Source: Cantharellus purpuraceus (taxonomy: Eukaryota; Basidiomycota; Agaricomycetes; Cantharellales; Hydnaceae). Taken from it: a stretch of DNA of 64,000 bases. The notes beneath the pieces were generated by a model. That model searched no databases. It saw only the letters and a list, made by a program, of their open reading frames with translations, and was not told the DNA's origin. Where the stretch lies: positions 1,240,001-1,304,000 of the forward strand of contig JALBUN010000049.1 in NCBI GenBank assembly GCA_025174535.1. Reading direction: 5' to 3'. Shown here piece by piece: positions 1 through 64,000 of this stretch (position 1 is its first letter; every line of letters begins with the position of its first letter). Made by a program: the position numbers and the translations under genes.

Positions 1-690
1 GGCCCTGGTTTTACAGGAATGTAGAACACTACGATAGGGCAGTCCAAGACTGGACCCTGGAAACTGCAATCCTTGGATTGCAGTGTAGATTCCTACATAC
101 CCTAATGCATCACTATGCGTCAAATAAGTTTGACTCTGTAATACAGGGTCAAAGGACCATTCACAAATTAATGAATGACCTAGATAAGTACGCAGGTCGC
201 ATGATAATGCCACCGGACACATACACGTACAGGAAGAGGTTTGTAACTGCAATGCACAAACCTCTGAGACAAGAAGTCCTCAAGAAGGGCTTCAATGCCG
301 AGTTTAGCAGTATTGAGCAGTTGTACAAAACTGCTTGAATGATAGAGGAAGTGACGCGATACCACCACAGTATGCAACACCCAGAGAACATGACTAACAC
401 GTCCCCCTCAACCCATAGACCAGTAGTCAATAGAACTACTGGTATGATGAATATGGGGAGTTGACCCATGCCCCAAGGACATGTATATGGCTCCCAACAC
501 ACACTCACAACAAGCGAGTGTGTCAAGGTTGGAACCCCATAATGGAAGCTCCGGGGCCAATTCCAACAATTACCTTTTCAAGGGTAATTATCCATCAAAA
601 CCACCAGCACACGCGAGTGGTGATCAATTGAACAATGTTACTAGTAATGTTGTGTGCTACAAATGTGGCCAGACAGGTCACATGTGACCT
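1..690 (+). pseudogene. GypV gag remnant with zinc knuckle
   Basis: Reading forward, 1-338 encodes a retrotransposon capsid-type segment (residues such as HYDRAVQDW and NKFDSVIQGQRT) that also appears in a second copy at 10047. The reading then passes through stops to 481-687, which ends in the nucleic-acid-binding knuckle CYKCGQTGHM followed directly by TGA, so the last Cys of the CCHC box is lost. Gag would coat the element RNA in the cytoplasm. The segment is truncated at the window start and is a pseudogene. The stop after the knuckle lies in a perfect 16-bp palindrome at 675-690. Confidence 0.75.
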
Positions 691-1189
691 AGCTGCCCCA
701 AATTAACGGGCAATGTAAGGTTGGTTGCCGTCCAAAAGGATGTGTCCTCACACATAGTGGAGGATAAGGTAGATGGATTCTCCCTGATAGAGGGAGAACA
801 TGAAGAAGCAATGGATGATCCCAAGGACCATCTAGACAAAAAAGTATCAGCTATAGAAGTGGCTGACAATGGGATGAGGAGGTCGCTGCATATGAATGGG
901 ACAACCAAGATGATGCCCCTGAAAGGGAGGCTACGCCAATGTATTGCTCTAATGTGATATGAATTCAACCCAATGATCAAATTCCACCGAGACACACCTA
1001 TGTGGTGCATTTCTGTAGTGCAACAAGATTCCGGAGAAGCAGGGAATCACGACAGCTGCATACAGCTGCTGTCAGTATTGACAGATTGGCCAAACCTATG
1101 TATAATCATAGGAGCCAACAGAAGTTGACAGTGTGACCAGATAGACTGCACATAGACAACAAAACAATCTCTGGGTATTGGGAGATTGG

Positions 1190-2149
1190 TGGAACACTAG
1201 CCCACTGTCTATTAGACAGTGGAAGTGAGGATAATGATATCCCCTGAATTCACACGCGTGACAGGTATGAAGACATTTGCACTAGAGCAACCCATTGCAC
1301 TGCAATTAGCATGTGTTGGGAGTAGGAGTACCATAAAGTTTGGTAGTCAGAACATTGAAGAATATTTTGATGTCAATGTTGAGTATTACGATGTAATACT
1401 CGGTACCCCATTCCTATGAAAGTTACAAATATGCCTGGACTTTAATGGCCCAGGCCCAATCATGATGGGAACTGAAGAAGTCCCCACCAATGGAGAGCAT
1501 AATACCAATGCTCTTCATACCCCGTCATGGGGTATAAACTCAATATGAAGAAAGAGTGTTGGTGTGAATAAATGATGCCAAGGGGGTAACTCTAAACACG
1601 AGCTACCCACAACACAGTCCTTCCTAAAAGAAGGACTAGACTCAGTAAAGGACCCCCCAATGGAGGATCCAAATAAGAACATGACATGAATAGCTTTGTC
1701 TCGTGAAGAATCAACCACTTACATGGCCAGTCAGATCCCTCAGTTGAGTCATCAATGGAAAGAAAAGTATGCTGACCTATTCAGCAGCATACCCTTAGAA
1801 CTTCCCCCATTTAGGGAAGTTAACCACGAGATTAATCTCGTGGATCCTGACAAGCAAATACATTATCACTTGCCTAAGTGTCCAGAGCACTACTGAGCAG
1901 AACTTTCAGAGAAAGTCCTGTGATACACCACTGCTAAATTGTGGGTATCAGCTACAGCCCAGCAAGCTGTACCAATGCTATGCATTCCCAAAAAAAAACA
2001 GGAAGCTCCACACCATGTTCAACTTGCGTGAACAGAATGATAATACAGTGAAGGACGTAACACCCTTCCCTGATCAGGACAGCATTAGACATGATGTTGC
2101 CTGCTGTACATATCAATCTAAACTTGATATGTCCAAAGCATATGAACAG
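1190..2149 (+). pseudogene. GypV protease to reverse transcriptase N-terminus, broken
   Basis: The retropepsin active site LLDSGS is encoded at 1209-1226. The rest of the protease (to DVILGTPFL, 1219-1419) is in another frame, so a frameshift sits right at the active site. 1696-1896 carries the conserved region just before RT (LPPFREVNHEINLVDPDK), and 2015-2148 carries the first RT blocks (FNLREQNDNTVKDVTPFPDQ, then SKLDMSKAYEQ). The copy stops where LTR-Z copy A begins. The order PR-RT and the motifs are typical of Ty3/gypsy; the enzyme is dead in this copy. Confidence 0.8.
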
Positions 2150-3620
2150 TGTTTTGGAACCTGCAAAATTATGGTGTTAGGGCAAACTGCTTTGGAACCC
2201 ACAAAATTATGGTGTTAGGGCAAACTCTAAATCACCACAATTCTGTGAATGAACAGCTGAGAAGAATATCAAACCCTGCTGCAGCACAACTCCAGAAACA
2301 ATTTAACATTTGTACTTTGGTTACAATCCTTTGTATTGGTCAACGCAGACTATATGCAGAAAAGTAATATGTTTCTTAGCAGCAAGAAATGAACAAGGCT
2401 TCCAGAGTCTAGAGTTCACGGACGCTTAGGGGTCCAGATATTCCAAGAAGAGGGGAATGTACTTAGAGGCTAAAGGAAGTAGGTGGATGAATCCAACTAT
2501 CCAACCAGTGACACTCTGAAGTGGGTAACAGCAATGTGTGAAGTAGTCTAGCAACTGCTTCACATGGGTTCAAGATTCTAATGCTCTGCAAAGGCAGTAC
2601 ACACTAGTAACTTAAACATGAGCACTAATGACAGGACTATTGACAGACAATCTCACCCTGTAGATTTGTAGTCACATGAGGCAGATACTACACTCACGCC
2701 CAAAGCAGGAATATCACTACTTTGAGTGCAATCAAGTACAGTTACACAACTGTAAAAGATCCTTGAACTGGTAATCAACAGTTACTGAGATAGAGGATGA
2801 CACTGTATGTCACTCTAGTCACACTGGTGTGCAGAAGATGGGTAGAAGTGGTAGAATATGTTGTTATTTCAGAGGCAGAATGACCTCCTTATATATTGTA
2901 TTTACAGGGGCTGACTAATGGTTCTAGAATATTCTACCTATTAATAGATGGAAACTACTGGAAGGTTGTGGAAGGTGGAAGAAAGGGGTAGAATATTCCA
3001 AGCCAATCACAGGTTCTGATCACTGTGCTAACACTGATCAGGAGCTGAATAATGGTTCTGGAATGTTCTATCTAATAATAGAAGGAAACAGCTAGAATGT
3101 TATGGAAAGGGGTAGAATATTCCAAGGCAATCACCTGATCTGATCATCAATCATCTGCTCTGATCCCTGAATTAGACACTGATCAGGCAAAAAGGAGGGT
3201 ATCCACCCTGTTTTCTGCACTGGTTTGGACAGCCATGGATAGCCACATCTCAGGTGATGATCTCCACAGAAAATAGTGCCCTGAGAGGCTGTGGTTGTCA
3301 AGTTACACAATATTTATTGATCAGAGACATCTGAGCTTGAATTCAGGCCAAATGCCTGGTCCAAAGGTGGAGAGCTGGCTGTGCAAAGGTTTGTGGGCAC
3401 CTATGGGTCCACAACTGTAGCACAGCAGAAATAAATCATTCTGGGCCGAGTTCTGCATGGAATATTCCTGAAAAAATATGGAAAAATAGAGAATATTTGA
3501 ATAAGTCCATTCCAAGTACAAGCACCATGTATATGCTGATATTTAGGAATGGAAAGGTGAAATAGAGCACATTGGTGCTGCATAAATAGAATTTGATAGG
3601 GAAAAGGTGGTTCCCATACA
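2150..3620 (-). mobile_element. LTR-Z copy A (TG...CA long terminal repeat, 1.47 kb)
   Basis: It starts TGTTTTGGAACC and ends GGTTCCCATACA on the plus strand. The TATA motif is on the minus strand (about 2888-2897), so transcription would run leftward. The first 33 bp are duplicated in tandem (2150-2216). It belongs to the subfamily with several heat-shock-element matches (TTC/GAA triplets at 2922-2934 and 3056-3068). The flanks differ (AACAG left, GTCAT right): GypV RT lies to the left and reversed GypV gag to the right, so this copy sits at a rearrangement joint rather than a clean insertion. No coding capacity is seen. Confidence 0.75.
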
Positions 3621-10029: not shown

Positions 10030-10607
10030 AAGAACTCACCTGCCCCTTGAGGAATATAGAACATTACAATAGGGCAGTCAGAGACTGGACCATAGAGACT
10101 GCAATTCAAGGGTTGCAGCATAAATTCCTACATACATTGACACATGATGATGTGTCAAATAAGTTTGACTCTGTCATGCACAGTCAAAGGACCATTCATG
10201 AATTGATGAACAATCTAAAAAAAGTATGCAGGCTGCTGCATGATAATGCCATCAGACATGTCCACATTCAGGAAGAGGTTCATAGCCACAATGCACAAAC
10301 CCCTATGACAAGAAGTCAAGAAGGGCTTCAATGCCAAATTTAGCAGCATTGAGCGGTTGTATGAACCTGCTTGAATGTTAGAGGAAGTGACACGATACCA
10401 TCACAGCAATGTCTGGAGAATGCAACAAATGTGTCCCCCTTAGCTCACAAACTAGTAGTCCATAGAACTACTGGTGTAACAAACATAGGAAGCTGACCCA
10501 CACCCTATGGACATACACATGTGGCCCCCAATGTGCACTTGTGAAAAGTGAGTATGCTAAGGCCAGAACCCCATAATGGTGGCTCCAGACCTAGTTTGAA
10601 CAGTTAC
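10030..10607 (+). pseudogene. GypV gag fragment, second copy
   Basis: Parallel to 1-600: residues HYNRAVRDW, then NKFDSVMHSQRTIHEL, followed by stops. It is cut at 10607 by LTR-Z copy C. The hairpins of the first copy are kept with changed bases (10099-10118 and 10137-10158), which allows a covariation test. Confidence 0.75.
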
Positions 10608-19755: not shown

Positions 19756-19909
19756 GTTCGATTACTAATGGTAATTCTATTATTTCGCATCATCATTTTA
19801 TTACAAGTCACAAGGGAAATTACCAGCCTGCCCAAAAAACTCTGAAGGAATATCACTCCGACTCATTTTTCTCTGCTCCAAAATTTATAATCATTTTCAT
19901 TTTTTATTT

Positions 19910-22900
19910 TTATACATCGCGTTTCCTTTTTCCCTTCCCCTTATCTACCTCAGGCTCCGTCTCCGACTCATCATCACTCTCTACATCCAACACCCAATCT
20001 TTCTCATCCCCCATGTCCAAATCCTCGTCCAAAGGGGCCATGAACTTCCGCAACCGACATAACTCGGCTGTCCGCTGACCCTCCAGAACCTCCTTCCATT
20101 TCATTGTCTTCACCAAGTCCACTAGCAACCCCTCTGTCCGCCGGAGGTGCTCCGACTGCAGGTTAACCAGCCAGATAAGCTGGCCCACAGTACTATTGGG
20201 CGCAGAGACGCGCCCCGTACCTGCACTGGTCATTGCCCCTTCCGATCTGACACCGCTACCCCTGGCTGCCACAGCACCTGCCTCCGTCCGCCGCTTTTTG
20301 GTCGGACGACCTTCCGATTCTTTCTCTGCCCCTCCTTGTACCACTAGTCAGGGCTTGACTGTATGGGAACTGGTTTTCCCTTAAAAAGATCTTGTTTAAA
20401 GTCCCGAAACTGTACAATTTCGCTTCATGGCCTTAAAATATCAGCATATATCTGCTGCTTTCTCTTGATTCAGGGCCATTCAAATATTCTCTATTTTTTC
20501 ATATTTTTTCGGGAATTTTCCATGCAGAAATGAGTCTACAAACTTATTGTTCTGCTGGGCAAAGTTTTGGGACCCACATGGACCCACAAACCTTCGCAGA
20601 TGTCAGCAGCCTCAAAGTCAGCCGGAGTCACCCGGACAACTGACTCATTTTCGATCACATGACTCATTTCAATCTCCAACTCAATCTGCTCACCACTGCC
20701 AGTAAATCCTCAATATCTTCGCAACCACTGCACCTCCTGACTCCATTTTCGGTGGAGAGTTCAATAGAAGCCGTGCCTACCCATAGCTGTGCTAATCAGC
20801 CTGGGAAACGAAGTATTGACCGAGTTATTTGAGTAATGGTGACTCATGCAATGACTCATGCAATGACTCCTTCCATGACTCATACCATGACTCCTGTGAT
20901 TACTCATACTATGACTCCTGCTCTGAGTCACACTATGACTCCATCCATGACTCATGCCATGAGTCAGAGCAAATCCAAGCAGCTCATTGGCTAGGAAACT
21001 TCCACCCCCTTCTCACATATTCCACTAGCTTCCAGTAGTTTCCATCTATTAATAGGTAGAAGTTTCCAGTAGTGTTGGTCAGCTCCTGTAAATACAATAT
21101 AAAAGGAGCCCATTCTGCCTCTGAAATAAATAACCATTTCTACCCCATCATTTGCACATCAGTGTGACTAGAGTGACATACAGTGTCATCCTCTATATCT
21201 CAGTAACTGTTGATTGTCCAGTTCAAGGGTCGCTTACAGTTGTGTAACTGTATTCAATTGCACTCGAAGTAGTGATTGTCCTGCTTTGGGCGTGAGTGTA
21301 GTATCTACCTCGCATGACTACAAATCTACAGGGTGAGATTGTCTGTCGATAGTCCTGCCATTAGTGCTCATGTTTAAGTTACTAGTGTGTACTGCCTTTG
21401 CAGAGCATTAGAATCTTGAACTCGTGTGAAGCAGTTGCTAGACTACTTCACACATCGCTGTTACCCGCTTCAGAGTGTCACTGGTTGGACAATCGGATTC
21501 ATCCACCTACTTCCTCTAGCCTCTAAGTGCATTCCCCTCTTTTTGGAATATCTGGACCCCTAAGCGTCCGTGAACTCTAGACTCTGGAAGTCTTATTCAT
21601 TCCCTACTGCTAAGAAACGTATTACCTTTCTGCGTATAGTCTGCATTGACCAATACAAAGGATTGTAACCAAAGTACAAACGTTAAATTGTTTCTGGAGT
21701 TGTGCTGCAGTAGGATTTGATATTCTTCTCAGCTGTTCATTCACGGAATTGTGGTGATTTAGAGTTTGCCCTAACACCATAATTTTGCGGGTTCCAAAAC
21801 ATTGACGCTCCGACTCCGGGGATTGAACTTTCCATCGATCCTACACCCTCCTTTCCAACCCCGACAACGATCACAGGACCAAAGGCGGCGAGTTGGGCCA
21901 GTAGGCCGCACACACTCCACGCCCGCATCACGACACAAGTCACAAGTTATGCCGGGTCCGCCAAATGGCTCCATTGGAGCCAGAGCCTTGGGTGGTCCGC
22001 CCCTTCTCGCTGCAGCCTCCAAGTGTTCCCTCTCCTCCTCCTTGTCCTGCTGTTCTGCCACCGCCTTCTCCATCTCGTGCTTGCGAAGCTGGATCACCGA
22101 CCTCACAACACGCAGCTCCTTCTTATGGGTTGCCAATACGCAACTCTCCGCCTTGCACCATATGACCCTCCGATCCACCTCCCGCTTCTCCGTATCAGCA
22201 CTCGGGTACGCCTTCAATGAAAAGACTGCAACGTCAAGATTCTTCTTGGTGGTAGCGGCATAGAGCTCCGCTCTTTTGCAAGCCTTGACTGTGGCTACCC
22301 AAGCCATCTCCTCGTAACAATTCAAAGTTGGATCCGGCTCCACATCCGTCCCGACATCCACACCCACCTCAGGCTCCGCATTTGCGTCGAGCTCCATATT
22401 GGCATCGGGATCCGCCTCCACCTCTGCCCTCTCCGCCTCCGCTGCTTCATCTTCCTCAGCCACACCCAACCCAAATAATGGCCATGCCCACGGACGCAAC
22501 GGCAAGTCCTCCACAGTGACAGTTTTCGGATGAGTTGTCTCTGTCCGTTGTCGGTTCGCTTAAGGAATAGATCCTATAAACCTGCGCGCAACGGTCCTAG
22601 CAAACAGACGGTGTGTAACGCAGTTGTTCAGCACTCCAAAGATCAATCAGGGCGAGGGGTACGTAACAGGGAAGTGGGATAGTGCTCTGTGGTTGGATGG
22701 GGATGGGAGCTAAAGGTCAGTCCCGATGGCTGATCGTGCTCTGTGACTGGATGACAGTGCGGAGCCCGGTTGGGAGGTACGCGAAAGCTGGTTTCAGGAG
22801 AATCAACCTCTCAGTGGCGGAGGGAAATCTGATCGTTGAACCAAGGTGTTTTACCTCAGTGTAGAGATGATGGATTGTGATGTAGAGCGTAGAGCGTAGA

Positions 22901-27374: not shown

Positions 27375-28478
27375 CCCTGGAACAATATCCGAGTCTATTG
27401 TAACTATCAACAAGATAACTGGGCTGACCTACTTCCAATCGGAGAGTTTGCCTACAACAATGCCCTGAACATGACTACTGGCATCTCTCCGTTCTTTGCT
27501 AATAAAGGCTACCATCTGAACATCTCTGTCCACCCCGAGAAGGAACTCGCCTCCACCAAAGCCCGCCAATTCGTAACCGACCTCAACCAACTACACCAAC
27601 ATCTCCGAGAAACCATCTCCGATGCCCAGAAACAATACCAAGTCTCTGCAGACTGACACCACATCCCGGCTCCAGACCTGCAAATCGGAGACAAAGTATT
27701 CATCAAGGCCGAACACTTCTGGACCACCCATCCATTGAAGAAACTCTCTGAGAAATACTTAGGTCCTTATGAGGTCATTGCTTGTGCAGGCAGCAGGTCC
27801 TTCACCCTCCGCCTCCCTGACCACTTCCAAGCAGTTCACCTGGTCTTCCATATATCAATGCTCGAACCTGCTACTACAAATGAGATCTCCGGTTGCACCC
27901 AACCTCTGCCTCCTCCAATCATCATTGACGGAGATAATGGATATGAGATATCTGAGATCCTGGACTCAAAGATTGATCATCAGTACAAGTGCAAGCTCCA
28001 GTACCTAGTCAAATGGACTGGATATGAAGGCAATGATGAAGAGTCCTCATGGATTTCCACATCCGAACTCGATCATGCATCCAAATCTGTTTCCAATTTT
28101 CACTCCACTTATCCAGACAAACCTAGCCCTCTTATGAATCTTTAAGTTCCATTACTGATGCTAATTCTAACATTTCGCATGATCATTTCATTACAAAGTC
28201 ACAAAGGAAATTACAAGTCTACCCAACCTCTGAAAGAATCTCACTCCACCCCATTTTTTCTTCACTCTGAAATATTACAATCAAAATCATTTTCATTTTT
28301 TTAGTTATACATTGTGTTTCCTTTTTCCCTTCCCCTTGTCTACCTCAGGCTCCATCTCCAACTCATCCTCACCCTCCACATCTGACACCCAATCTTTCTC
28401 ATCCCCCATGTCCAAATCCTCATCCAAGGGGGCCATGAACTTCCACAGCTGATGCAACTCAGCAGTCCACCGACCCTC
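27375..28478 (+). pseudogene. GypY integrase C-terminus and chromodomain, left arm of inverted repeat
   Basis: It begins inside integrase, runs through the chromodomain (YLVKWTGYEGNDEESSW) to a stop at 28145, then into the C-terminal end of the antisense ORF. A TGA at about 27654 breaks the integrase frame. The sequence is nearly identical to the reverse complement of 28557-29662; the 136-codon frames 27735-28145 and 28890-29300 encode the same protein. Confidence 0.88.
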
Positions 28479-29662
28479 TAACCTGCAGTCGGAGCACCTC
28501 CAGCATACGGAGGGGTTGTTAGTGGAGTTAGTGAAGACAATGAAATGGAGGTTCTGGAGGGTCGGTGGACTGCTGAGTTGCATCAGCTGTGGAAGTTCAT
28601 GGCCCCCTTGGATGAGGATTTGGACATGGGGGATGAGAAAGATTGGGTGTCAGATGTGGAGGGTGAGGATGAGTTGGAGATGGAGCCTGAGGTAGACAAG
28701 GGGAAGGGAAAAAGGAAACACAATGTATAACTAAAAAAATGAAAATGATTTTGATTGTAATATTTCAGAGTGGAGAAAAAATGGGGTGGAGTGAGATTCT
28801 TTCAGAGGTTGGGTAGACTTGTAATTTCCTTTGTGACTTTGTAATGAAATGATCATGTGAAATGTTAGAATTAGCATCAGTAATGGAACTTAAAGATTCA
28901 TAAGAGGGCTAGGTTTGTCTGGATAAGTGGAGTGAAAATTGGAAACAGATTTGGATGCATGATCGAGTTCGGATGTGGAAATCCATGAGGACTCTTCATC
29001 ATTGCCTTCATATCCAGTCCATTTGACTAGGTACTGGAGCTTGCACTTGTACTGATGATCAATCTTTGAGTCCAGGATCTCAGATATCTCATATCCATTA
29101 TCTCCGTCAATGATGATTGGAGGAGGCAGAGGTTGGGTGCAACCGGAGATCTCATTTGTAGTAGCAGGTTCGAGCATTGATATATGGAAGACCAGGTGAA
29201 CTGCTTGGAAGTGGTCAGGGAGGCGGAGGGTGAAGGACCTGCTGCCTGCACAAGCAATGACCTCATAAGGACCTAAGTATTTCTCAGAGAGTTTCTTCAA
29301 TGGATGGGTGGTCCGGAAGTGTTCGGCCTTGATGAATACTTTGTCTCCGATTTGCAGGTCTGGAGCCGGGATGTGGTGTCAGTCTGCAGAGACTTGGTAT
29401 TGTTTCTGGGCATCGGAGATGGTTTCTCGGAGATGTTGGTGTAGTTGGTTGAGGTCGGTTACGAATTGGCGGGCTTTGGTGGAGGCGAGTTCCTTCTCGG
29501 GGTGGACAGAGATGTTCAGATGGTAGCCTTTATTAGCAAAGAACGGAGAGATGCCAGTAGTCATGTTCAGGGCATTGTTGTAGGCAAACTCTCCGATTGG
29601 AAGTAGGTCAGCCCAGTTATCTTGTTGATAGTTACAATAGACTCGGAGATATTGTTCCAGGG
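27375..29662. repeat. Near-perfect inverted duplication of GypY sequence, about 1.1-kb arms
   Basis: Arms 27375-28478 and 28557-29662 are separated by 78 bp (28479-28556). I found only a 2-bp indel near 27389 and a single T/C difference near 27718 in the stretches compared. The 78-bp spacer continues the right arm, so the left arm was copied back starting at an internal point, as in a foldback or template-switch event. A transcript across it could form a long hairpin. Confidence 0.88.
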
Positions 29663-31513
29663 ACTGATTCATTCATTCTGTTTGTCTGTCTCCTTCAGGA
29701 TGGTATCCAGAGGTGAAATGAAGCTTCGTGTTGAGAGCCTTTCCTAATGTGCGGAAGAAGGAGGACACAAACTCCAAGCCCCGATCAGACATGACCTGCA
29801 ATGGGACTCCATGTTTAGAGAATACGTGGAGAACAAACAACTTAGCTAGTGAGGCGGAGGTGATGGTGTCATGTGTCAGAATGAATAGTGACTGTTTATT
29901 GAACCTGTCAACAATCATGAGTATGGTGTTGTATCTGAGCAATGGGGGGAGTTTCTCTATGAAATCCATGGAGATGGAGTTCCATGGTTGCTTCAGGACT
30001 GGAAGTTGCTTAAGTGTTCCATAGGGTTTGTGCCTTTGCAATTTTGAGTGCATACAGGTGGTACAAGAGTTACAGTAGTGTTGAATGTACTCTCACATTT
30101 TTGGCCATATGTAGTCCTGTTGGATTAACCCTTGTGTGCGATTTTGCCTGAAATGGCTGGAGATCAGGTGATCATGATAATACTGCAAAACTTGGAGTTG
30201 GAGACCATTGGCATTGGGGACATATATCTGGTTGTTGTGTCAGAGGTGTCCTTCAGGATCAAGTGACCATTTTGGATCGGAAGGGTTGTCCAAGTGTTTA
30301 ACTGCAACAGGATCGGATTGGAGTGATGAGTGGATGTCAGAACGGAGTTGGTTGATATCCATAATGGTGACAGCTCAGAGGTTGGGAGTCATGAGGGTAG
30401 ATGCCTATAGGGACAATGCCAGCTGCTCGTTAGTGAACACAGGGCAAAAGTTGTGGGGGTTTACAGTGGCATAGTCACTACCCCCCTCTTTAGGGTAGAT
30501 GTCCCATCGTCTAGTTAACATGTCGGGCTTTGCTCTGAATTGACCAGGACAGAAGCAGATAACAAGGTTGAACTGAGACAGGTATTTGGACCATCGGACT
30601 TGTCTCCAGGTGAGTAGTTTGATTGTGGAGAAGTATTCCAAGTTCTTGTGGTCCATTATGACGTCCACTGGATCGGAAGGGCGTTCAAGGTAGTGTCTCC
30701 ATATCCTGAAGGCTTCATATATGGCAAGGAGCTCTTTGTCATGGATGTCATAGTTCAGTTTGGGAGGCATCAATGTACATGAGTGAAAAGTGATTGGGTG
30801 GACTTGTCCATCATCTCTCCAGATGATGGACAGGATTGCAGCAAGTGCATAGTTGGAGGCATTGGTCTCTAATAGGATAGGAACATCTGGAACCCAATGA
30901 GTCAGTATTGGAGCAGAAGTAAAGGCCTTCTTCAAGGTCTCAAAGCTCTGTCTACATTCATCAGTGAAATTCCATTGGATACCCTTCCTAGTAAGTTGGG
31001 TGAGTGGAACGGTAATATCAGAGTAGTTGTAGATGAAGTGGCAGTAGAAGTTGGCAAACCCCAGGAAGGACTGTATGTCTTTGACTTTCTGTGGTTCTGG
31101 CCATTCCTGTATGGCTTTGATTTTGTCATCAGACATTATCAGTCCTGCCAGGGAGAGGATATAGCCTAGATATTTGACTGAGTCAGAGTGGAATTTGCAT
31201 TTGTCAGTGTGGGTGAAGAGGCCATGTTTTTGGAGATGTTGGAATACTTCTCAGACATGTGTCTGATGTTCTTCTTCGTTATCCAAATATATCAAAATGT
31301 CGTCTAAGTAAATGAGGACAGTAACATCAAGGAGGTCAGCGAAGGTATCGTTCATGAACCTCTGGAAGGTGGCTGGAGCATTGGTTAGTCTGAAGGGCAT
31401 GACACACCATTCGAAAGATCCATATCAAGTGTGGAAAGTCATTTTCCACTCGTCACCTTCTTGGATGTGGACTAGATGGTAGGCATGAATGTATGTTCAA
31501 TAGAGATGGATCC
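28479..31513 (-). pseudogene. GypY pol reversed: RT, RNase H, integrase, chromodomain
   Basis: Reading leftward from 31513 there is RT from the segment after [11 protein letters not shown], with an intact YLDD active site near 31293, then RNase H (31136-30405), integrase (about 30200-29300) and chromodomain (to 28890), then the antisense-ORF tail up to 28479. It shares the frameshift near 30255 with the full-length copy and has its own stops. Its right end joins the LTR-W-like piece at 31514. Confidence 0.85.
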
Positions 31514-32079
31514 TGTGGTCCAAATGTTCATAATTTGAGATAGTGATAGCTGTTGCAATATTCTAATAGAATATGCAAAAGGATTTGAAGTTGTTAGGAT
31601 CATTTAGGAGTTATTCCAGGAACGACCAAAAAATGACACAAGTTGTTTGATTTACAACTTGGAAGGGATAAACACAATGAATCTGATATGGATACTCATA
31701 CATAGTTGTAGCTAATATACAATTTGGCAATCACATGATAAGAAAGCCTTTTAGTAAGATTGAAACATATGATGAAAGAAATGATGCAGATACTTATAAT
31801 AAGTGATGTCATATGGGAAAAACTTTTATAACTTGATGGGATTTTATCTGCATCTTATGGGACTTATGATGAGTGTTAATCATCATAATATGGTCCCTTT
31901 TGAATAGAATTTCCCCCCCTGAAGACAAAAGGAGGGCTCACAAGAAAATTAATACCCTGTCCCCATCCAATAACCATATTTTCTACACCTTTTAATACCT
32001 CTTAAGGACTTTTCACACCTCTTCACTTCTTTTGCACCTTTAGAATAGATTCTCAACAAAGATAGAAACCAAACAAATA
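31514..32079 (+). mobile_element. LTR-W-related repeat, diverged
   Basis: It begins TGTGGTCCAAATG, comparable to the LTR-W start, and shares GCAATATTCTAATAGAATATG and GGAGTTATTCCAG with LTR-W in the same order. The right end is uncertain: TG...CA would close at 32074, while the duplicated TGCA of the transposase starts at 32080. No ORF. Confidence 0.55.
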
Positions 32080-33060
32080 TGCACCTGCCCACAGGTGCAT
32101 TAATGCCTTGGATGTCAGGCAATGGACCCTCATTCAACATGAAGGCAGGAGGGGCAGCATCCCCTGTGGCAGAAATACACTCCAAAATTGTCACAAGTTC
32201 AAGGTTATCACTACTGATCCTGTAGCAATTTCTAAAACCATGGAGGAAGGAGTGCTTCCTATTCCCAGTCTTTCACCCACCACCCATTTGAATCCCCTTC
32301 TCATCTTTGTTCCACTCATGCTCTGGCAGTATACTCCATATCTTTCCCTCAGCTTGAGCATCACATTGTTGAAAAGTCCACTACAATTTTCTAAGTGAAA
32401 TGCTGTGCACACTTCAGGTCAAGCTTGTTGGCTTTTGCTGCTATAAGTTCAGGATGTTGCTTCTGAAAATTATACAGCCATTTCTTCCCAGGATATGTGC
32501 TGGTTAGTCATTGTGCATGTGTGCAGAATGCTACACCATTGTAAGGTCATCCAGTACTTGATGACTGTTTGCACCATTCAGCAAGAACTAATTCCTGTGC
32601 AGGTGTAAGGATTTGCTGCTCTAAATGGGCCTCCCCCAGCTTTTATGTCAGTTCTTAGCCCTGTCAGTGAGCATTGATAAAGCAACCTGCTCAGCAAGAC
32701 AATGAGAGGTAACACATGCAGAAAATCTGGTTTATTACTCACATTTTCCTGCTCTGCAGCCCTCCTGAATGACTGATATTTACCATTAAGAACCCCCTCT
32801 ATTGCAGCTTTAACCCATCCTTTGTAGTTAGGACCATCAGTCCTTCAATGTTTGTGTGTCATGGTCAAACAGTCTGCCATCACAGCTGCATTGAAACTCC
32901 ATTATGGCATGAACAGCAAAGCATGACAGAATCCTCCAAACTGGATCTCTCACAAAACTATCTTTGAGGGCTTTTTTTTTTTACCAACATGTATAATGCT
33001 ACAATACATTTGTGTCTGTAAATTTTTTTTGGCCATATAGAAGAAATTTGGCCAGCTATA
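32080..33060 (-). pseudogene. DDE_1 transposase, N-terminal part
   Basis: Reading leftward, broken frames include KLRERYGVYCQS (32412-32191) and TILECISATGDAAPPAF (32194-32090), which correspond to the start of the DDE_1 catalytic fold. Upstream, 33060-32420 is noncoding-looking, decayed sequence where the helix-turn-helix would be. The gene resumes at 14303. The join through TGCA restores a plausible reading from AGRC to SVSTMPSGW. Confidence 0.65.
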
Positions 33061-55264: not shown

Positions 55265-56378
55265 CCGTCCAACCAGTGGCACTCTGAAGCAGGTAACAGT
55301 GATGTGTGAAGTAGTCTAGCAACTGCTTCACACGAGTTCAAGCTTCTAATGCCCTGCAAAGGCAGTACACACTAGTAACTTTAACAAGAGCACTAATGGC
55401 AGGACTATCAACAGACAATCTCACCCTGTAGATTCGTAGTCACGCGAGGTAGATACTACACTCATGCCCAAAGCAGGAATATCACTACTTTGAGTGCAAT
55501 CAAGTACAGTTACACAACTGTAAAAGATCCTTGAACTGGTAATCAACAGTTACTGAGATATAGAGGATGACACTGTATGTCACTCTAGTCACACTGGTGT
55601 GCAGAAGATGGGTAGAAGTGGTAGAATTTGTTCCTATTTCAGAGGCAGAATGGCCTCCTTATATATTGTATTTACAGGGGCTGAGTAATGCTTCTGGAAT
55701 ATTCTACCTATTAATAGATGGAAACTACTGGAAGGTAGTGGAAGGTGGAAGAAAGGGGTAGAATATTCCAAGCCAATCACAGGATCTGATCACTGGACTA
55801 ACACTGATCAGGAGCTGAATAATGGTTCTGGAATGTTCTATCTAATAATAGAAGGAAACAGCTAGAATGTTATGGAAAGGGGTAGAATATTCCAAGGCAA
55901 TCACCTGATCTGATCACCCATCACCTGATCTGATCCCTGAACTAGGCACTGATCAGGCAAAAAGAAGGGTGTCCACCCTGTTTTCTGCACTGGTTTGGAC
56001 AGCTGTGGATAGCCACATCTCAGGTGATGATCTGCATGGAAAATAGTGCCCTGAGAGGCTGTGGTTGTTAAGTTACAGAATATTTATTGATCAGAGACAT
56101 CTGAGCTTGAATTCAGGCCAAATGCCTGGTCCAAAGGTGGAGAGCCAGCTGTGGGAAGGTTTGTGGGCACCTATGGGTCCACAACTGTAGCACAGCAGAA
56201 ATAAATGATTCTGGGCCGAGTTCTGCTATTCCTGAAAAAATATGGAAAAATAGAGAATATTTGAATAAGTCCATTCCAGGTACAAGCACCTTGTATATGC
56301 TGATATTTAGGAATGGAAAAGCAAAGTATAGCACATTGGTGCTGCATAAATAGGATTTGATAGGGTGGTTCCCATACA
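55265..56378 (-). mobile_element. LTR-Z copy I, missing one end
   Basis: It follows the heat-shock-element subfamily from CCGTCCAACCAGTGG to CCCATACA. The outer 300-350 bp are replaced by LTR-X copy 4. Its right flank is GypV RNase H. Confidence 0.8.
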
Positions 56379-58900
56379 CTAGTGTGTAGGGCTCCAATAT
56401 TGAAGCCCATCAATGTCAATAACCCCGATACTATTTGGGTTATTACTGATGGCTCCAAAACTGGAGTCAGAGCTGTCTATGGACAAGGAAAAGATTGGCA
56501 GACCTGTTGGCCTGCCAGATTCCTATCAAAGAAATTTAGTGCTGCACAACAGCACTATAAGACCCATGAGCATGAGACTATAGCTGTGCTTGAAGCCCTC
56601 ATGAGATGGGAAGATAAGCTACTAGGACGAAAGTTCATCCTAGTAACTGACCACAAGGGTCTCAAATACTTTGAGATGCAAAAGAACCTGTCTCCTAGAC
56701 AGATTAGGTGGTGGGAGTTTGTGAATTGGGTGTCTTAGTTCACACCATTGCACAGAACTCAACCAAGTGTATTGGTGGGGTGATGTGCTGTACAGTGTGG
56801 TAGTTACTAAATCTTTCTGTCTCCTATATGTGGACCCACACGTGTACTTGGGTCCACTGGCTTACATAATAACTATACATATTCACCCATAGGATGCATA
56901 TATCTATCAAAAAGACAGCATTCCTTAATGGAATGCTGCATACACTAACTATCTAGCTACATACTATAGTAGGTAAGTACCTTGGGTACTTACAGAGTTC
57001 TTATCCCATTTTAACTTTACTACCCTGCATATAGACAGGGTAGAGAACAAAGTAGCGGATTGTCTATCATGCTACTATGCTGATGACTCCCCAACAGAGA
57101 GTCATCCCAACTACATCTACGTAAATGCAGATGAATGTCTCAACCCTGAAGGAGAACTGCTCCCCATGGAATGGTTCGTTGAGATCAGGACAGCAGCAGT
57201 CACCTGAAGGTGACTGCTCAAGAAAAAAGAAAACAGAGCGCTAGAAGCTGAAGCACTCAATATTCAAACAGAATCATTGAATGATGATTCTAATTCCTCT
57301 AAAGAAATAGAGGACGCTGGAGTGATGTCATCAGATGATGATGGAACACCATTGCAATCCCATGTTGAGCATGGGATCAACCTCATGCAGATTGTATGAG
57401 GTACATATAGAAAGGATACTGTCCTTTCTAAGGTGCTGGAAGCACTTAAAGAACACGCACAATTGGTGTGCGTGATGGTCTAATATGGACCAAAAATATA
57501 TACAAATGTGATGTCATCTGTATACCCCACTCAGTGTTCCTGAAGAGGAGGAGGCTGGTCAAGATAATAATCAACCATGTGCACCAAGTGGTTGGCCATT
57601 TTGGTCGACTAAAAACCGTGAATTACATTCAATGGTCATACTGGTGGTCAAGCATGACCACCAATGTCAAATCATTCTGCACTTCATGTGTGAAGTGCCA
57701 AATGAATAAAGACAGTGCGAAGAAACCCACAGGGCTTCTTCATAGCTTGCCAGTACCAGAGTGGCCCTGGCAATTGATAGGTATGGACTTTATGGGTCCA
57801 TTACCAAAATCAAATCACTATGACTACCTACTGGTAGTCATAGATCACTTCACGTCACAGGTACATATAATACCTACAAACATGCATGTAACAGCAAAAG
57901 GAGTAGCATGGCTATTCCTTACCTTCACAGTGTACCAGACTCAATCGTGTCTGATTGAGATTTGAAGTTCACGTCTATCTTTTGGCATGAACTACAGTGG
58001 ATAATGGGAGTGAAACTCCTCATGTCCACAGCATTCCATCTGCAAACAGATGGAGCAACAGAACAAGTGAATCATTCCATTGGCCAAATACTTCATACTG
58101 TTGTACAAAGTGATCAGAAAGATTGGGCACACAAGTGTCCAATGGTGGAGTTTGCACTAAACTCCAACATAAGCTCAACAACAGGGTTTACTCTGTTTGA
58201 GCTTAACCATGGGTATATGCCTAGAATAGGCATGCCCATTAACAATGACACCAAATTCAAGGGTGTCAAATGATTCACACAGCAGGCTCAAATGAACCTG
58301 CTAGCAGCGCACAACATGATTATAGAAAGTCACGTTGTTCAGATGTTTTATGCCAATAAGAAATGTCAGAAAGGTCCAACCTTCCAGAGAGGTGACAAAG
58401 TCTACCTCTCAATGAAAAAAATTGACTCTACCTAAGGGTAGAACCAGCAAACTAGTGCCCAGGTATATCAGGCCCTATAAAATAATTGAAGCCCATAATA
58501 AAGCTTCAATGGTGACACTGGAACTGCCACCAGAACTGACTAGTAGGCACATTACACCTACGTTCCACATCAGCCTCATTCAACCGTATGTGCCAAATGA
58601 TGAGATGAGATTCCCGAAATGGGCAGTGAAGTCATTTTACAACTTTGGGAACAACACTGAGCAGGAGTGGCTCATCAATGAAATCATTGCTCATCGATGG
58701 ATAAGTGATAAAGAACTTGAATTTCAAGTTCTATGGATGTTGGGAGATGTCACCTGGGAACCTTACACATCATGTAAGGACCTAGAAGCTCTAGACGATT
58801 ATTTAGAACTTTGAGGGGTGACTCAAGCATGAGAACTACCTCATTGAAGGTAGTTCTCAGAGAGACAGAACCCCAAAAATCTAATGGGGCTCAAAGGGGG
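56379..58900 (+). pseudogene. GypV RNase H, integrase and chromodomain
   Basis: RNase H: WVITDGSKTGV, HYKTHEHETIAVLEAL, LVTDHKGLKYFE (56420-56690). The spacer to 57470 is frame-broken. Integrase: HHVHQVVGHFG zinc region with CTSCVKCQ, IGMDFMGPLPKS, VVIDHFTSQ, then a shifted frame with TDGATEQVN. Tail: LTPTFHISLIQ-type segment HITPTFHISLIQPYV, and chromodomain to DDYLEL with stop at 58812-58814. It would complete the GypV polyprotein whose start is seen at 1-2149, although from another copy. The DNA carries at least 18 perfect hairpins with stems of 8 bp or more (see findings). A purine run AAAGGGGGGAAG at 58893-58904 fits a polypurine tract. Confidence 0.85.
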
Positions 58901-58904
58901 GAAG

Positions 58905-60695
58905 TGGAGCTACCAAGAATAAAGGTAGCTCCTAGTGGCATGCAGCAAAGAGCTACCATCAATGATGGTAGCTCAACAAGGGGAGGAGGAACTACCTCAA
59001 TCAAATGGTAGTTCCTAGATAAGGATAGAGCTACCATAACAATAGGCAGTGTTTTGGAACCCGCAAAATTATGGTGTTAGGGCAAACTCTAAATCACCAC
59101 AATTCCGTGAATGAACAGCTGAGAAGAATATCAAATCCTACTGCAGCACAACTCCAGAAACGATTTAACGTTTGTACTTTGGTTACAATCCGTTGTAATG
59201 GTCAATGCAGACGATACGCAGGAAGGTAATACATTTCTTAGCAGTAGGGAATGAATAAGACTTCCAGAGTCTAGAGTTCACGGACGCTTAGGGGTCCAGA
59301 TATTCCAAAAAGAGGGGAATGCACTTAGAGGCTAGAGGAAGTAGGTGGATGAATCTGACCGTCCAACCAGTGACACTCTGAAGCGGGTAACAGCGATGTG
59401 TGAAGTAGTCTAGCAACTGCTTCACACAAGTTCAAGATTCTAATGCTCTGCAAAGGCAGTACACACTAGTAACTTAAACAAGAGCACTAATGGCAGGACT
59501 ATCGACAGACAATCTCACCCTGTAGATTCGTAGTCACACGAGGTAGATACTACACTCACGCCCAAAGCAGGACAATCACTACTTCGAGTGCAATTGAATA
59601 CAGTTACACAACTGTAAGCGACCCTTGAACTGGACAATCAACAGTTACTGAGATATAGAGGATGACACTGTATGTCACTCTAGTCACACTGATGTGCAAA
59701 TGATGGGGTAGAAAATGGTTATTTATTTCAGAGGCAGAATGGGCTCCTTTTATATTGTATTTACAGGAGCTGACTAATACTACTGGAAACTTCTACCTAT
59801 TAATAGATGGAAACTACTGGAAGCTAGTGGAATATGTGAGAAGGGGGTGGAAGTTTCCTAGCCAATGAGCTGCTTGGATTTGCTCTGACTCAGGGCATGA
59901 GTCATGGATGGAGTCATAGTGTGACTCAGAGCAGGAGTCATAGTATGAGTAATCACAGGAGTCATGGTATGAGTCATGGAAGGAGTCATAGCATGAGTCA
60001 TGGCAGGAGTCATTGCATGAGTCACCATTACTCAAATAACTCGGTCAATACTTCGTTTCCCAGGCTGATTAGCACAGCTATGGGTAGGCATGGCTTCTAT
60101 TGAACTCTCCACTGAAAATGGAGTCAGGAGGTGCAGTGGTTGCGAAGATATTGAGGATTTACTGGCAGTGGTGACCAGATTGAGTTGGAGATTGAAATGA
60201 GTCATGTGATCGAAAATGAGTCAGTTGTCCGGGTGACTCCGGCTGACTTTGAGGCTGCTGACATCTGCGAAGGTTTGTGGGTCCATGTGGGTCCCAAAAC
60301 TTCACCCAGCAGAACAATAAGTTTGTAGACTCATTTCTGCATGGAAAATTCCCAAAAAAATATGAAAAAATAGAGAATATTTGAATGGCTCTGAATCAAG
60401 AGAAAGCAGCAGATATATGCTGATATTTTAAGGCCATCAAGTGGAATTGTACAGTTTTGGGACTTTAAACAAGATCTTTTTAAGGGAAAACCAGTTCCCA
60501 TACAGGCAGCTCAATGGTTGAAAAAACTGCTCCCATAGGGAGCAGTTCACTGTCGTGCTACTCATAGTAGCATGAAAGGGGTAAGCAATAATCAATCATG
60601 TTACACCCATGTGACATAGTCACTAGAAAAATTCTCAATAAAGAATTTTTGAGCTCAGCCATAAAAGGCTAGTGGTGTTTCTTCGAACCACCACA
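58905..60695 (+). repeat. GypV LTR, interrupted by LTR-Z copy G
   Basis: It starts TGGAGCTACC just after the polypurine tract, continues to 59049, and resumes after LTR-Z and GGCAG at 60510-60695, ending near CCACCACA before the gag leader. The net length is about 330 bp. It is built almost entirely of consecutive hairpins. A CATAAAAGG motif at about 60659-60668 could be the TATA box. The 3' end is inferred. Confidence 0.55.
59050..60504 (-). mobile_element. LTR-Z copy G, solo, target duplication GGCAG
   Basis: A 1455-bp TG...CA repeat flanked by GGCAG (59045-59049 and 60505-60509), inserted in the GypV LTR. TGASTCA subfamily. It seems identical to the reverse complement of copy H at every place compared. 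Confidence 0.92.
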
Positions 60696-60716
60696 ACCCC
60701 CCCCCCCTCCATCAAA

Positions 60717-63615
60717 ATGTCATCTCTCAGAAGGGAGATGATGGATGCTCAGGATGAGCATCCAATGGAAGTTGAACAAACTTCCACAGTGGCAGCACTG
60801 GTAACAAGTGCTGCAGATATGATCAGGGGTCATCAAGATGAGATGACCTGGAAAATTGGCAGATGGCATGGTGGCACTGTCATCCATCACCCTCATGGGT
60901 GCAACAAGTGCAATGCATATGTGTTGCACTTAATTGAGGCCCAAAATGGGGGCCAACTATACCTTTCCACCACTTTGGTGGAAAGAGCATTAAGAGTTGC
61001 ATGGCTGTGACTGTATGGGAACTGGTTTTCCCTTAAAAAGATCTTGTTTAAAGTCCCAAAACTGTACAATTCCACTTGATGGCCTTAAAATATCAGCATA
61101 TATCTGCTGCTTTCTCTTGATTCAGAGCCATTCAAATATTCTCTATTTTTTCATATTTTTTTGGGAATTTTCCATGCAGAAATGAGTCTACAAACTTATT
61201 GTTCTGCTGGGTGAAGTTTTGGGACCCACATGGACCCACAAACCTTCGCAGATGTCAGCAGCCTCAAAGTCAGCCGGAGTCACCCGGACAACTGACTCAT
61301 TTTCGATCACATGACTCATTTCAATCTCCAACTCAATCTGGTCACCACTGCCAGTAAATCCTCAATATCTTCGCAACCACTGCACCTCCTGACTCCATTT
61401 TCAGTGGAGAGTTCAATAGAAGCCATGCCTACCCATAGCTGTGCTAATCAGCCTGGGAAACGAAGTATTGACCGAGTTATTTGAGTAATGGTGACTCATG
61501 CAATGACTCCTGCCATGACTCATGCTATGACTCCTTCCATGACTCATACCATGACTCCTGTGATTACTCATACTATGACTCCTGCTCTGAGTCACACTAT
61601 GACTCCATCCATGACTCATGCCCTGAGTCAGAGCAAATCCAAGCAGCTCATTGGCTAGGAAACTTCCACCCCCTTCTCACATATTCCACTAGCTTCCAGT
61701 AGTTTCCATCTATTAATAGGTAGAAGTTTCCAGTAGTATTAGTCAGCTCCTGTAAATACAATATAAAAGGAGCCCATTCTGCCTCTGAAATAAATAACCA
61801 TTTTCTACCCCATCATTTGCACATCAGTGTGACTAGAGTGACATACAGTGTCATCCTCTATATCTCAGTAACTGTTGATTGTCCAGTTCAAGGGTCGCTT
61901 ACAGTTGTGTAACTGTATTCAATTGCACTCGAAGTAGTGATTGTCCTGCTTTGGGCGTGAGTGTAGTATCTACCTCGCGTGACTACGAATCTACAGGGTG
62001 AGATTGTCTGTCGATAGTCCTGCCATTAGTGCTCTTGTTTAAGTTACTAGTGTGTACTGCCTTTGCAGAGCATTAGAATCTTGAACTTGTGTGAAGCAGT
62101 TGCTAGACTACTTCACACATCGCTGTTACCCGCTTCAGAGTGTCACTGGTTGGACGGTCAGATTCATCCACCTACTTCCTCTAGCCTCTAAGTGCATTCC
62201 CCTCTTTTTGGAATATCTGGACCCCTAAGCGTCCGTGAACTCTAGACTCTGGAAGTCTTATTCATTCCCTACTGCTAAGAAATGTATTACCTTCCTGCGT
62301 ATCGTCTGCATTGACCATTACAACGGATTGTAACCAAAGTACAAACGTTAAATCGTTTCTGGAGTTGTGCTGCAGTAGGATTTGATATTCTTCTCAGCTG
62401 TTCATTCACGGAATTGTGGTGATTTAGAGTTTGCCCTAACACCATAATTTTGCGGGTTCCAAAACAGCGACTTATATGCGACATTGAAGATGACGTCACA
62501 ACACCTTATCATGAAGACTATGATAAGAGGATAACTTGGACCTGTTTGCACAGGTCCAAGAACTCAAAGGACTTCTTGACAATGAGAAGTCCAAAGTAAC
62601 TCATCTCAGAGACAAGTTAAAAACATTGAAGGAGGCTGCTAATAGAGCACCTCCTACATTCAAGACCAAGCTCACAATGGTGCACTTGGCCCCAATAGCA
62701 TCACTATCACATGCTATGGCAGGCAAATCATTGTCTGCCATGATGCCGTCACAGCCCATGGCTTCATCATCACGGGAAATGATCGATCTCACCAAAGAGG
62801 AGGACAATTGCCCAAGCAAATTGCCTTGGATCGATCCTCGAGGGTTTGAGGGTCAAGATTGGGATGACACTGACCCAATCTGGGAGGGATACAACCACAA
62901 TCGTGGCCTCCTCCTGGCTAGCATCCCCAAGGGTGCTAAGCAATCAGGCAAACTCAAAGAGTTTTCCCTATCAGAAATTGAAGCTGAGATTGATCAGCTT
63001 TGAAAGGAATATATGGCTGGTGATGCCAGCCATACCTTAAAAGATCTAGCATTGAAGATGCTGGAGGAAGCCCAGCATACAAATTATTGCAAACAATGGG
63101 ACGATTTTGGGCATGCTCTCAAGCATGCCAATGTGGGGAAATCATTCCCCAAATGGGCACCATGGTTCATGACTGTGGCTGACCCCCCCAGAGCAGTCAC
63201 TGGCCACCTGCCATGACCTCTGGGCAAGTCCACCCCTATCAGGGCAGACTGGTTTGACATCTGTGATATGGACACTCCAGAGTTCATATCACTCCATAAA
63301 AAGGCATTGGCCATGCCGTTCATGGAATGGACTGTACCGATGCACAGAGTCATCAAGAGAATGACTCTACTGGCTCACACTGATAACACGAGTCCTATTG
63401 TCACTCTACTGACCACACCAGTAGACACACTTGCCCTCATACAAGGGTGGCAAGTAAACCCTAATGGGGTCCCCCCAGCCATCTGACAGGAGTCAGATGG
63501 TACTATGAACTTGTCCAATGTGGACATCTGGATGTGGCTACAAAAGGCCACTCCCAAGAAGGGTTCTTCTGTATTTAAGAAGAACCTCTGGACTATGTTC
63601 CAGAATCCTGGCCAT
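60717..63615 (+). pseudogene. GypV gag (N-terminal polyprotein), interrupted by LTR-Z copy H
   Basis: The ATG at 60717 follows a C-run leader: MSSLRREMMDAQ, HPHGCNKCNAYVLHLIEAQ, VERALRVAWL, then TGA created in the LTR-Z target duplication. After the insertion: a coiled-coil segment (VQELKGLLDNEKSKV), IDLTKEEDN, LPWIDPRGFEG, WDDFGHALKHANVGK, then ISLHKKALAMPF and VDIWMWLQKAT. Frames change at about 62530, 63001 and 63213-63483. This matches the fragment at 3621-4013 and should precede the capsid segment seen at 1-690. It is cut at 63615 by LTR-Z copy J. The exact role of this N-terminal part is not recognised. Confidence 0.65.
61012..62466 (+). mobile_element. LTR-Z copy H, solo, target duplication G(T/C)GAC
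   Basis: A 1455-bp repeat in sense orientation, flanked by GTGAC (61007-61011) and GCGAC (62467-62471): one duplication with a C to T change at a CpG. It interrupts GypV gag. With copy G it forms a large inverted repeat around a 507-bp spacer. Confidence 0.9.
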
Positions 63616-64000
63616 TGGAAACTACTGGAAGGTTGTGGAAGGTGGAAGAAAGGGATAGAATATTCCAAGCCAATCACAGGTTCTGATCACTGGACTAACA
63701 CTGATCAGGAGCTGAATAATGGTTCTGGAATGTTCTATCTAATAATAGAAGGAAACAGCTAGAATGTTATGAAAAGGGGTAGAACAATCACCTGATCTGA
63801 TCCCTGAACTAGACACTGATCAGGCAAAAAGAAGGGTGTCCACCCTGTTTTCTACACTGGTTTGCACAGCCATGGATAGCCACATCTCAGGTGATGATCT
63901 CCACAGAAAATAGTGCCCTGAGAGACTGTGGTTGTCAAGTTACACAATATTTATTGATCAGAGACATCTGAGCTTGAATTCAGGCCAAATGCCTGGTCCA
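63616..64000 (-). mobile_element. LTR-Z copy J, partial, runs off the window
   Basis: It follows LTR-Z copy A from TGGAAACTACTGG (equal to 2948) to GCCTGGTCCA (equal to 3362). The first 800 bp are missing. It is joined directly to GypV gag. Confidence 0.85.

Follow-up and report, generated by a model that had tools for sequence, protein, structure and literature searches.

A broken Ty3/Gypsy long terminal repeat (LTR) retrotransposon, to which we assign the hairpin-bearing sequence described here, lies in a 64,000-nucleotide (nt) window of the Cantharellus purpuraceus genome (contig JALBUN010000049.1, positions 1,240,001 to 1,304,000). We refer to it as family V. Its pieces carry an array of short perfect hairpins, which we tentatively read below as a structure held by selection on DNA. 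The pieces of V and two diverged relatives within the window are as follows.

56379..56719, + strand, V pol fragment, RNase H region (Pfam RT_RNaseH 1e-25, 56364-56735; four genome copies at 91-94%)
56720..56994, - strand, solo V LTR in V pol, 275 bp, TG..CA, homologous to the left LTRs of L013 and L021 and the right LTR of L025
56995..58814, + strand, V pol with broken reading frames: RNase H end, integrase (Integrase_H2C2 4.6e-16), SH3 (SH3_Tf2-1 9.8e-11)
58815..59049, + strand, V stretch past the last pol open reading frame (ORF), taken as non-coding; four hairpins (235 bp, 17/kb)
60509..61008, + strand, same V element continued beyond an inserted LTR-like repeat: 3′ ORF start, 7 hairpins
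62467..63615, + strand, same V element continued beyond a second inserted LTR-like repeat: 3′ ORF, 9 hairpins
1..2186, + strand, further V copy, hairpin-rich: gag, protease and reverse transcriptase (RT) start, parts assigned by match to L028
3639..4086, - strand, relic Y, diverged V relative (about 75% identity), 4 hairpins
10049..10607, + strand, relic X, diverged relative of V gag (about 75% identity), 1 hairpin of at least 8 bp

The V pol is truncated on the left at 56379, at the end of a repeat of another kind. The solo LTR is flanked by a target-site duplication, GAGTT, at 56715-56719 and 56995-56999; other V copies do not have this insert and their matches overlap by 5 bp there. Copies L021 and L028 (L numbers denote the genomic stretches compared) link window position 59049 directly to about 60502, and L028 8425-9567 matches window 62470-63618. 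The intervening segments, 59050-60508 and 61009-62466, are LTR-like repeats that belong to a single different family, lie in opposite orientations and are both inserted in one V element; their 99.9% identity suggests recent nested insertions. An earlier reading of the window (the original prediction) concerned the interval 56379-58814; the pieces at 1-2186, 60509-61008 and 62467-63615 are hairpin-rich family V too.

The features that place V in Ty3/Gypsy are its domain order, TG..CA LTR, target-site duplication and polypurine tract. In L028 the Pfam domains run, in rising order, Ty3_capsid (8.5e-6, below the curated cut-off), zf-CCHC, RVP_2, RVT_1 (1.8e-20), RT_RNaseH_2 (below cut-off), Integrase_H2C2 (4.7e-18) and SH3_Tf2-1 (4e-12). 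In the window pieces RT_RNaseH, Integrase_H2C2 and SH3_Tf2-1 are all above cut-off. An A/G-rich tract sits immediately 5′ of the right LTR of L025. As to a primer-binding site, no complement of 7-12 bases was seen between the LTR and the next 45 bases in L021 and L013, a comparison made within the element. V also possesses ORFs downstream of pol (L025 8522-9364 in V orientation; window 62467-63615). A 281-amino-acid piece of these had no Pfam match, and its 12 homologues are all ‘hypothetical proteins’ in one source. An inverted match at the ends of L028 was considered as a pair of terminal inverted repeats and rejected, as it is a second V-type end placed head to head. The V copy at window 1-2180 has an inverted duplicate of 100% identity ~14 kb away (C49:1224261-1226442). 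L013 and L014 (C12 and C2) are 9.8-kb stretches, 99.8% identical across all the repeats they contain, and are probably a recent segmental duplication.

Hairpins were located by a greedy scan that required a perfect stem of 8 bp or longer and a loop of 3-11 nt. The original prediction had listed 18 stems in 56379-58814 together with a longer inverted repeat at 58170-58205, and all 19 are exact at the coordinates below. The scan returned 20 hairpins in the interval, those at 56418-56444 and 58146-58166 being additional to the ones listed before. Four further stems of 9-12 bp lie directly downstream, at 58830-59016.

56418..56444, hairpin, 8 bp, loop 11
56537..56557, hairpin, 8 bp, loop 5
56620..56645, hairpin, 8 bp, loop 10
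56830..56857, hairpin, 9 bp, loop 10, within solo LTR
56916..56938, hairpin, 9 bp, loop 5, within solo LTR
56973..56993, hairpin, 9 bp, loop 3, within solo LTR; first bases of the V LTR, minus strand
57020..57043, hairpin, 8 bp, loop 8
57082..57106, hairpin, 8 bp, loop 9
57195..57218, hairpin, 10 bp, loop 4
57270..57291, hairpin, 8 bp, loop 6
57357..57377, hairpin, 8 bp, loop 5
57408..57430, hairpin, 9 bp, loop 5
57454..57474, hairpin, 8 bp, loop 5; CpG-rich, decayed in other copies
57642..57663, hairpin, 9 bp, loop 4
57679..57698, hairpin, 8 bp, loop 4
57818..57843, hairpin, 11 bp, loop 4
58035..58054, hairpin, 8 bp, loop 4
58146..58166, hairpin, 8 bp, loop 5
58170..58205, inverted repeat, 9 bp, loop 18
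58485..58510, hairpin, 8 bp, loop 10; CpG decay site
58712..58732, hairpin, 9 bp, loop 3
58830..58859, hairpin, 12 bp, loop 6
58906..58932, hairpin, 9 bp, loop 9; stem identical in 11/11 fetched copies aligned there
58950..58974, hairpin, 11 bp, loop 3
58987..59016, hairpin, 10 bp, loop 10

Two of these can be read in another way: 57195-57218 as 11 bp with a 2-nt loop, and 58712-58732 as a 10-bp stem with a 1-nt loop. The hairpins had been described as lying in coding pol; those at 56830, 56916 and 56973 sit instead inside the reversed solo V LTR. Dinucleotide shuffles of 56379-58814 (n = 200) gave a mean of 0.44 hairpins and a maximum of 3, against the 20 observed. Shuffles that retain both protein and codon usage were applied to the readable frames only. 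The frame-defined pol segments hold 11 stems of at least 8 bp, compared with 0.61 ± 0.72 (maximum 3) in 100 such shuffles, so the density does exceed codon-preserving chance as had been claimed.

Twenty further stretches of ~10 kb were fetched and 23 V copies aligned to L028 as a pile-up. The near-duplicates L014, L029, L030, L031, L033 and L034 were omitted from the pile-up and, where matching, from the relic comparisons described below. The 23 copies define 125 distinct hairpin sites over 8.5 kb, or ~1 per 70 bases; 54 sites recur in half or more of the copies that cover them, and 21 are seen in just one copy. Across the array the stems are 6-12 bp and the loops mostly short. L028 alone, a single decayed copy, has 54 stems of at least 8 bp in 8,498 bp, one per 157 bases. 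Hairpins are found throughout V, in the LTR, gag, protease, RT, RNase H, integrase, 3′ ORFs and non-coding DNA, with no clear codon-phase bias. They belong to the whole family and not to one copy, and are spaced along the element at about one per 100-150 bases. Codon-preserving shuffles of L028 gave 8 stems against 0.47 in gag, 11 against 1.21 in pol and 9 against 0.51 in the 3′ ORFs; the values for L013 are 9 against 0.54 (gag) and 8 against 0.31 (pol). In L028 the excess begins at stems of 6 bp (42 vs 12.9 shuffled) and extends up to 11 bp, 5-bp stems being at chance (46 vs 47).

A density census covered L009-L050 and the window (L001-L008 were excluded), with overlapping or duplicate stretches counted repeatedly. 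The density is 6.07/kb in V-like DNA (837 hairpins in 137,860 bp), 3.34/kb in diverged V-like DNA (17 in 5,097 bp) and 0.22/kb where there is no V match (42 in 193,082 bp). For the window only, the count is 49 in 6,232 bp of V and 15 in the 52,459 bp elsewhere, which agrees with the earlier statement that neighbouring elements and host genes show nothing similar. That other elements are bare was also borne out, since 0 hairpins occur in the LTR-like repeats at 55268-56378, 59050-60508 and 61009-62466, which belong to other families. The generalisation that LTRs lack hairpins was discarded, as it holds for these repeats only and V’s own LTR has three. Fourteen integrase loci of other Gypsy elements, which cluster into about three groups by similarity, contain at most one hairpin per locus in 3.2 kb, and the four other-Gypsy loci put through the codon-shuffle test have 0 stems of at least 8 bp. 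Within the sampled DNA, the array is confined to family V and its diverged relics.

Comparison between copies is complicated by CpG loss. The V pieces have a CpG observed/expected ratio of 0.08-0.32, outside CpG, too, G>A and C>T are the commonest changes among V copies, and the pattern indicates strong methylation-type decay. Many stem differences between copies fit CpG loss. CpG-suspect columns (1,206/8,498) were dropped from the constraint and mismatch tests. Covariation was considered as support for pairing and set aside: the 45 two-sided cells among 2,845 scored (39 gap cells apart) resemble CG->TG in one arm and CG->CA in the other.

Four relics, ~25% diverged from V, allowed constraint on the stems to be measured. 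X and Y (both in the window) and Z (in L027) are coding; Q adjoins the V copy of L028. Other diverged V-like fragments of the genome lie at C9:589563, C23:2831657, C11:701192 and C9:1303692. Hairpins defined in V were compared with X, Y and Z, and their non-CpG stem bases differ at 25/287 positions as against 188/1,122 for other bases (Fisher p 4e-4). Of 20 such hairpins, 18 show no more than two non-CpG stem differences. The signal is clear at third codon positions, where 10/95 differ in stems vs 90/339 elsewhere (p 8e-4). Neither first (7/91 vs 48/353) nor second positions (8/90 vs 31/357) differ significantly. Two-fold sites differ at 3/47 in stems vs 55/213 (p 0.003). None of 5000 circular shifts of the stem mask gave a value as low as that observed. 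Relic Q, which comprises a 3′ end and LTR, behaves similarly (9/129 stem bases vs 55/330 others, p 0.007). Over the four relics, stem bases differ about half as often as the rest. In integrase/SH3 the residues encoded by stems are ordinary: the frequency of the V residue among homologues (120 of 576 found, with proteins at 55-74% identity among those listed) is 0.646 for 47 stem codons and 0.629 for 137 others. The third-position constraint and the ordinary nature of the stem-coded residues thus indicate that silent codon choice encodes the hairpins and that they were maintained: silent sites in stems were kept constant as the V lineage diverged. Non-CpG variation within V is also lower in stems (271/16,521 vs 1,242/58,723 outside); we do not use this as evidence because the stems were chosen for being intact. 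An apparent gain in relic X of a 9-bp hairpin by three one-arm changes was rejected, one change being left after CpG-suspect exclusion.

One account of such constraint is a selected RNA structure, in which a chain of hairpins in the genomic RNA would evade silencing or degradation or aid packaging. Folds of the sense RNA are indeed far more stable than those of its shuffles, with mean z between -3.8 and -4.2 for each 150 nt, the stems are constrained both at silent sites and in the LTR, and the whole element is covered. The folding test, in which 71 windows, each 150 nt long and taken from three stretches of V, were set against shuffles, gave mean z of -3.8 to -4.3 for both strands alike (controls -0.75 to +0.35), thus the antisense folds equally well. 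Selection on sense RNA also predicts that stems would accept G·U much more readily than A·C, and the counts do not follow this. Non-CpG stem mismatches common to at least 60% of copies comprise 10 G·T (two sharing a base), 14 A·C and 11 other. Where V differs from X, Y and Z, the relic pair is G·T in 7 cases, A·C in 6, other in 10 and still paired in 2; for hairpins defined in the relics, the V pair is G·T in 5, A·C in 2, other in 2 and paired in 1. Relic Q gives G·T 0, A·C 7 and other 2. Among V copies, departures on one side of a pair comprise 86 G·T, 99 A·C and 57 other, and only 3/245 departing non-CpG cells are two-sided and paired. No two-sided non-CpG change was found between V and relics X, Y, Z and Q; three pairs stay Watson–Crick where the other side is CpG-suspect. 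Few of 83 tetraloop occurrences are GNRA (6) and none is UNCG, and Rfam gave no match at the gathering threshold in window 56300-64000. The V hairpins therefore do not look like sense-RNA structure, as judged from their pairing pattern, and we regard this account as unlikely. The ‘genome-wide RNA fold’ of the original prediction survives as strand-symmetric structure and fails in its version of RNA protection or packaging.

Some hairpins carry a different kind of mark. At three sites the loop is reverse-complemented between copies with the stem kept (CAAG/CTTG, AGA/TCT and AAG/CTT). Two single-base candidates, GCC/GGC and AAT/ATT, could each be explained by one central change, and a fourth hit, CATGCACA/TGTGCATG, was rejected as CpG decay. 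Plain reversal of a loop was not seen among the copies, and plain complement only once, at the AGA/TCT site again. For the first site, 74 dispersed exact matches with flank were found genome-wide: 66 have CAAG, 8 have CTTG (two of these in one duplicated stretch) and 0 have either of the two single-step intermediates. At another site, the loop states among the 14 of 61 genome-wide matches listed are 13 AGA and 1 AAA. The CTTG carriers L036 and the window are each nearer to some CAAG carriers than to each other, in the case of L036 slightly (0.032 vs 0.034). This hints at more than one inversion, or recombination, behind the CTTG carriers. Loop inversion is described in PMC8604942 as a by-product of switching between the arms of an inverted repeat. 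Inverted loops with kept stems therefore suggest that the V hairpins fold as DNA at some stage.

According to PMC8794818, template switching can create a perfect hairpin in one step. The array might thus be a mutational by-product, with snap-back template switches in the element’s own reverse transcription perfecting imperfect repeats and the protein filtering the survivors. The loop inversions at three sites and the two single-base candidates point this way, as do an array that is family-specific and strand-symmetric, the two fetched CTTG carriers not being mutually closest copies (one by a slight margin), and the four hairpins in 235 bp of non-coding DNA. Copying of one arm from the other should gather changes in one arm, yet stems with at least two non-CpG V–relic differences divide into 5 one-arm and 6 mixed, albeit small numbers. 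It also predicts compensatory pairs (fewer in coding DNA), against which stand the absence of two-sided non-CpG V–relic changes and the resemblance of the 45 two-sided cells to CpG decay. Among 648 hairpin occurrences, 7 have at least two private stem bases and 0 are clean non-CpG one-arm tracts. In a toy model (random coding sequence, silent changes only) ~19 seeded switches per point mutation were needed to yield 3.75 hairpins/kb, below the ~6 observed. The earlier suggestion of snap-back copying is thus upheld in that inverted loops point to snap-back or cruciform events, but one-arm copying is not in excess and, by the toy model, silent switching alone would need an extreme rate. As the whole explanation we find it improbable. 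Copying may have contributed to building the array, but its upkeep is more simply explained by selection on the stems.

An origin in chance, base composition or faulty assembly can be put aside as exceedingly improbable, since it is favoured only by decay making single stems appear or vanish and is opposed by the dinucleotide and codon shuffles, the other families and the 74 dispersed exact matches of one hairpin with flank.

What stands of the original prediction is a Gypsy element with hairpins beyond codon-preserving chance and neighbours without them; a sense-RNA function is unsupported. Our preferred but tentative reading is an element-wide array of perfect Watson–Crick hairpins kept by selection, probably at the DNA (complementary DNA, cDNA) stage. 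The whole body of V is a run of short perfect Watson–Crick hairpins, encoded in its genes through silent codon choice. The structure would be useful to the element and selected as DNA-type pairing, as the strict Watson–Crick character and the likeness of the two strands suggest. The likeliest reason would be that the single-stranded cDNA made in reverse transcription takes the form of hairpins strung like beads, which compact or shield it, and occasional snap-back at these hairpins would flip their loops. The fuller proposal, that V evolved a whole-element DNA structure in which ~a hundred silent-site mini-hairpins shield or compact the single-stranded intermediate, is possible but doubtful.

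Several points weigh against selection on DNA-stage pairing. Just 4/20 V hairpins show zero non-CpG stem differences from X, Y and Z, and four-fold sites alone fall short of significance (7/48 vs 35/126, p 0.077). The stems were ascertained in V, which may slightly favour slow sites, and each relic is one dead copy, with decay of its own that enters the comparisons. Positions next to the L028 stems show A·C over G·T by 50 to 17 (p 0.004 vs composition), an excess that may reflect A-rich flanks and not minus-strand pairing. The loop inversions are few and may postdate integration, having arisen in host DNA and not in element replication. We infer both the cDNA step and the usefulness to the element from sequence patterns. 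A scan of viral and prokaryote contigs for V relatives gave pattern matches, none of them confirmed, and the DNA comparisons are all within one genome.

Other repeats in the window were noted. Positions 31639-32100 hold three 8-9 bp hairpins in 460 bp, the sole such cluster outside V in the census. At 59887-60039, within the other family’s LTR-like repeat, there is a tandem array of a 12-bp GAGTCATGG-like unit. A ~3-kb inverted duplicate of 88% identity (17157-20165 and 28479-31487) lies in a repeat nest, and 27375-29662 is itself a near-perfect inverted repeat (97.5%).

Compared with Ty3/Gypsy elements having a Tf2-type SH3 integrase, V has the same order of gag, CCHC knuckle, protease, RT, RNase H, integrase and SH3, and likewise a short TG..CA LTR, a polypurine tract and a 5-bp target duplication. 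It differs in its extra ORFs downstream of pol (one scanned piece without a Pfam match) and in its hairpin array, which is absent from the 14 other Gypsy loci sampled. Genome-scale ordered RNA structure, known from some RNA viruses with a persistence phenotype, is marked by folding energy well below shuffles and by silent-site constraint. V shares a folding energy far below shuffles throughout, and silent-site constraint, but is strand-symmetric, shows no G·U preference, is built of discrete perfect stems and is a retroelement.

Nematomorph mitochondrial genes contain coding palindromes of up to 284 bp that are gained and lost between species with their proteins preserved, and template switching is discussed by the authors (PMC6649704). 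V too has perfect inverted repeats in conserved coding DNA with the protein preserved. Its stems, in contrast, are no longer than 12 bp (in the window; 11 bp in L028), it is a nuclear retrotransposon on many contigs, and 18/20 of its hairpins are within two non-CpG stem differences of the relics, as opposed to the gain and loss described between nematomorph species. The template-switch hairpins of PMC8794818 and PMC8604942 resemble V in loop inversion with intact arms; V differs in having no excess of arm-homogenising clusters and a silent-site constraint that switching would leave unexplained short of an extreme rate. Among the matches listed for hairpins in LTR retrotransposons, and in passages of PMC11381356 on Ty3 RNA structure, no such array was reported, subscription literature being mostly outside reach.

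V therefore fits some, and fails other, defining features of both ordered RNA structure and nematomorph palindromes. Most of what is known of large-scale structure in coding sequence concerns viral RNA. V shows silent-site constraint but lacks the G·U signature that marks RNA selection, and its genome also contains Gypsy loci that are almost free of hairpins. This contrast makes testable both structural selection on the replication intermediates of a retroelement as DNA and whether reverse transcription itself writes hairpins.

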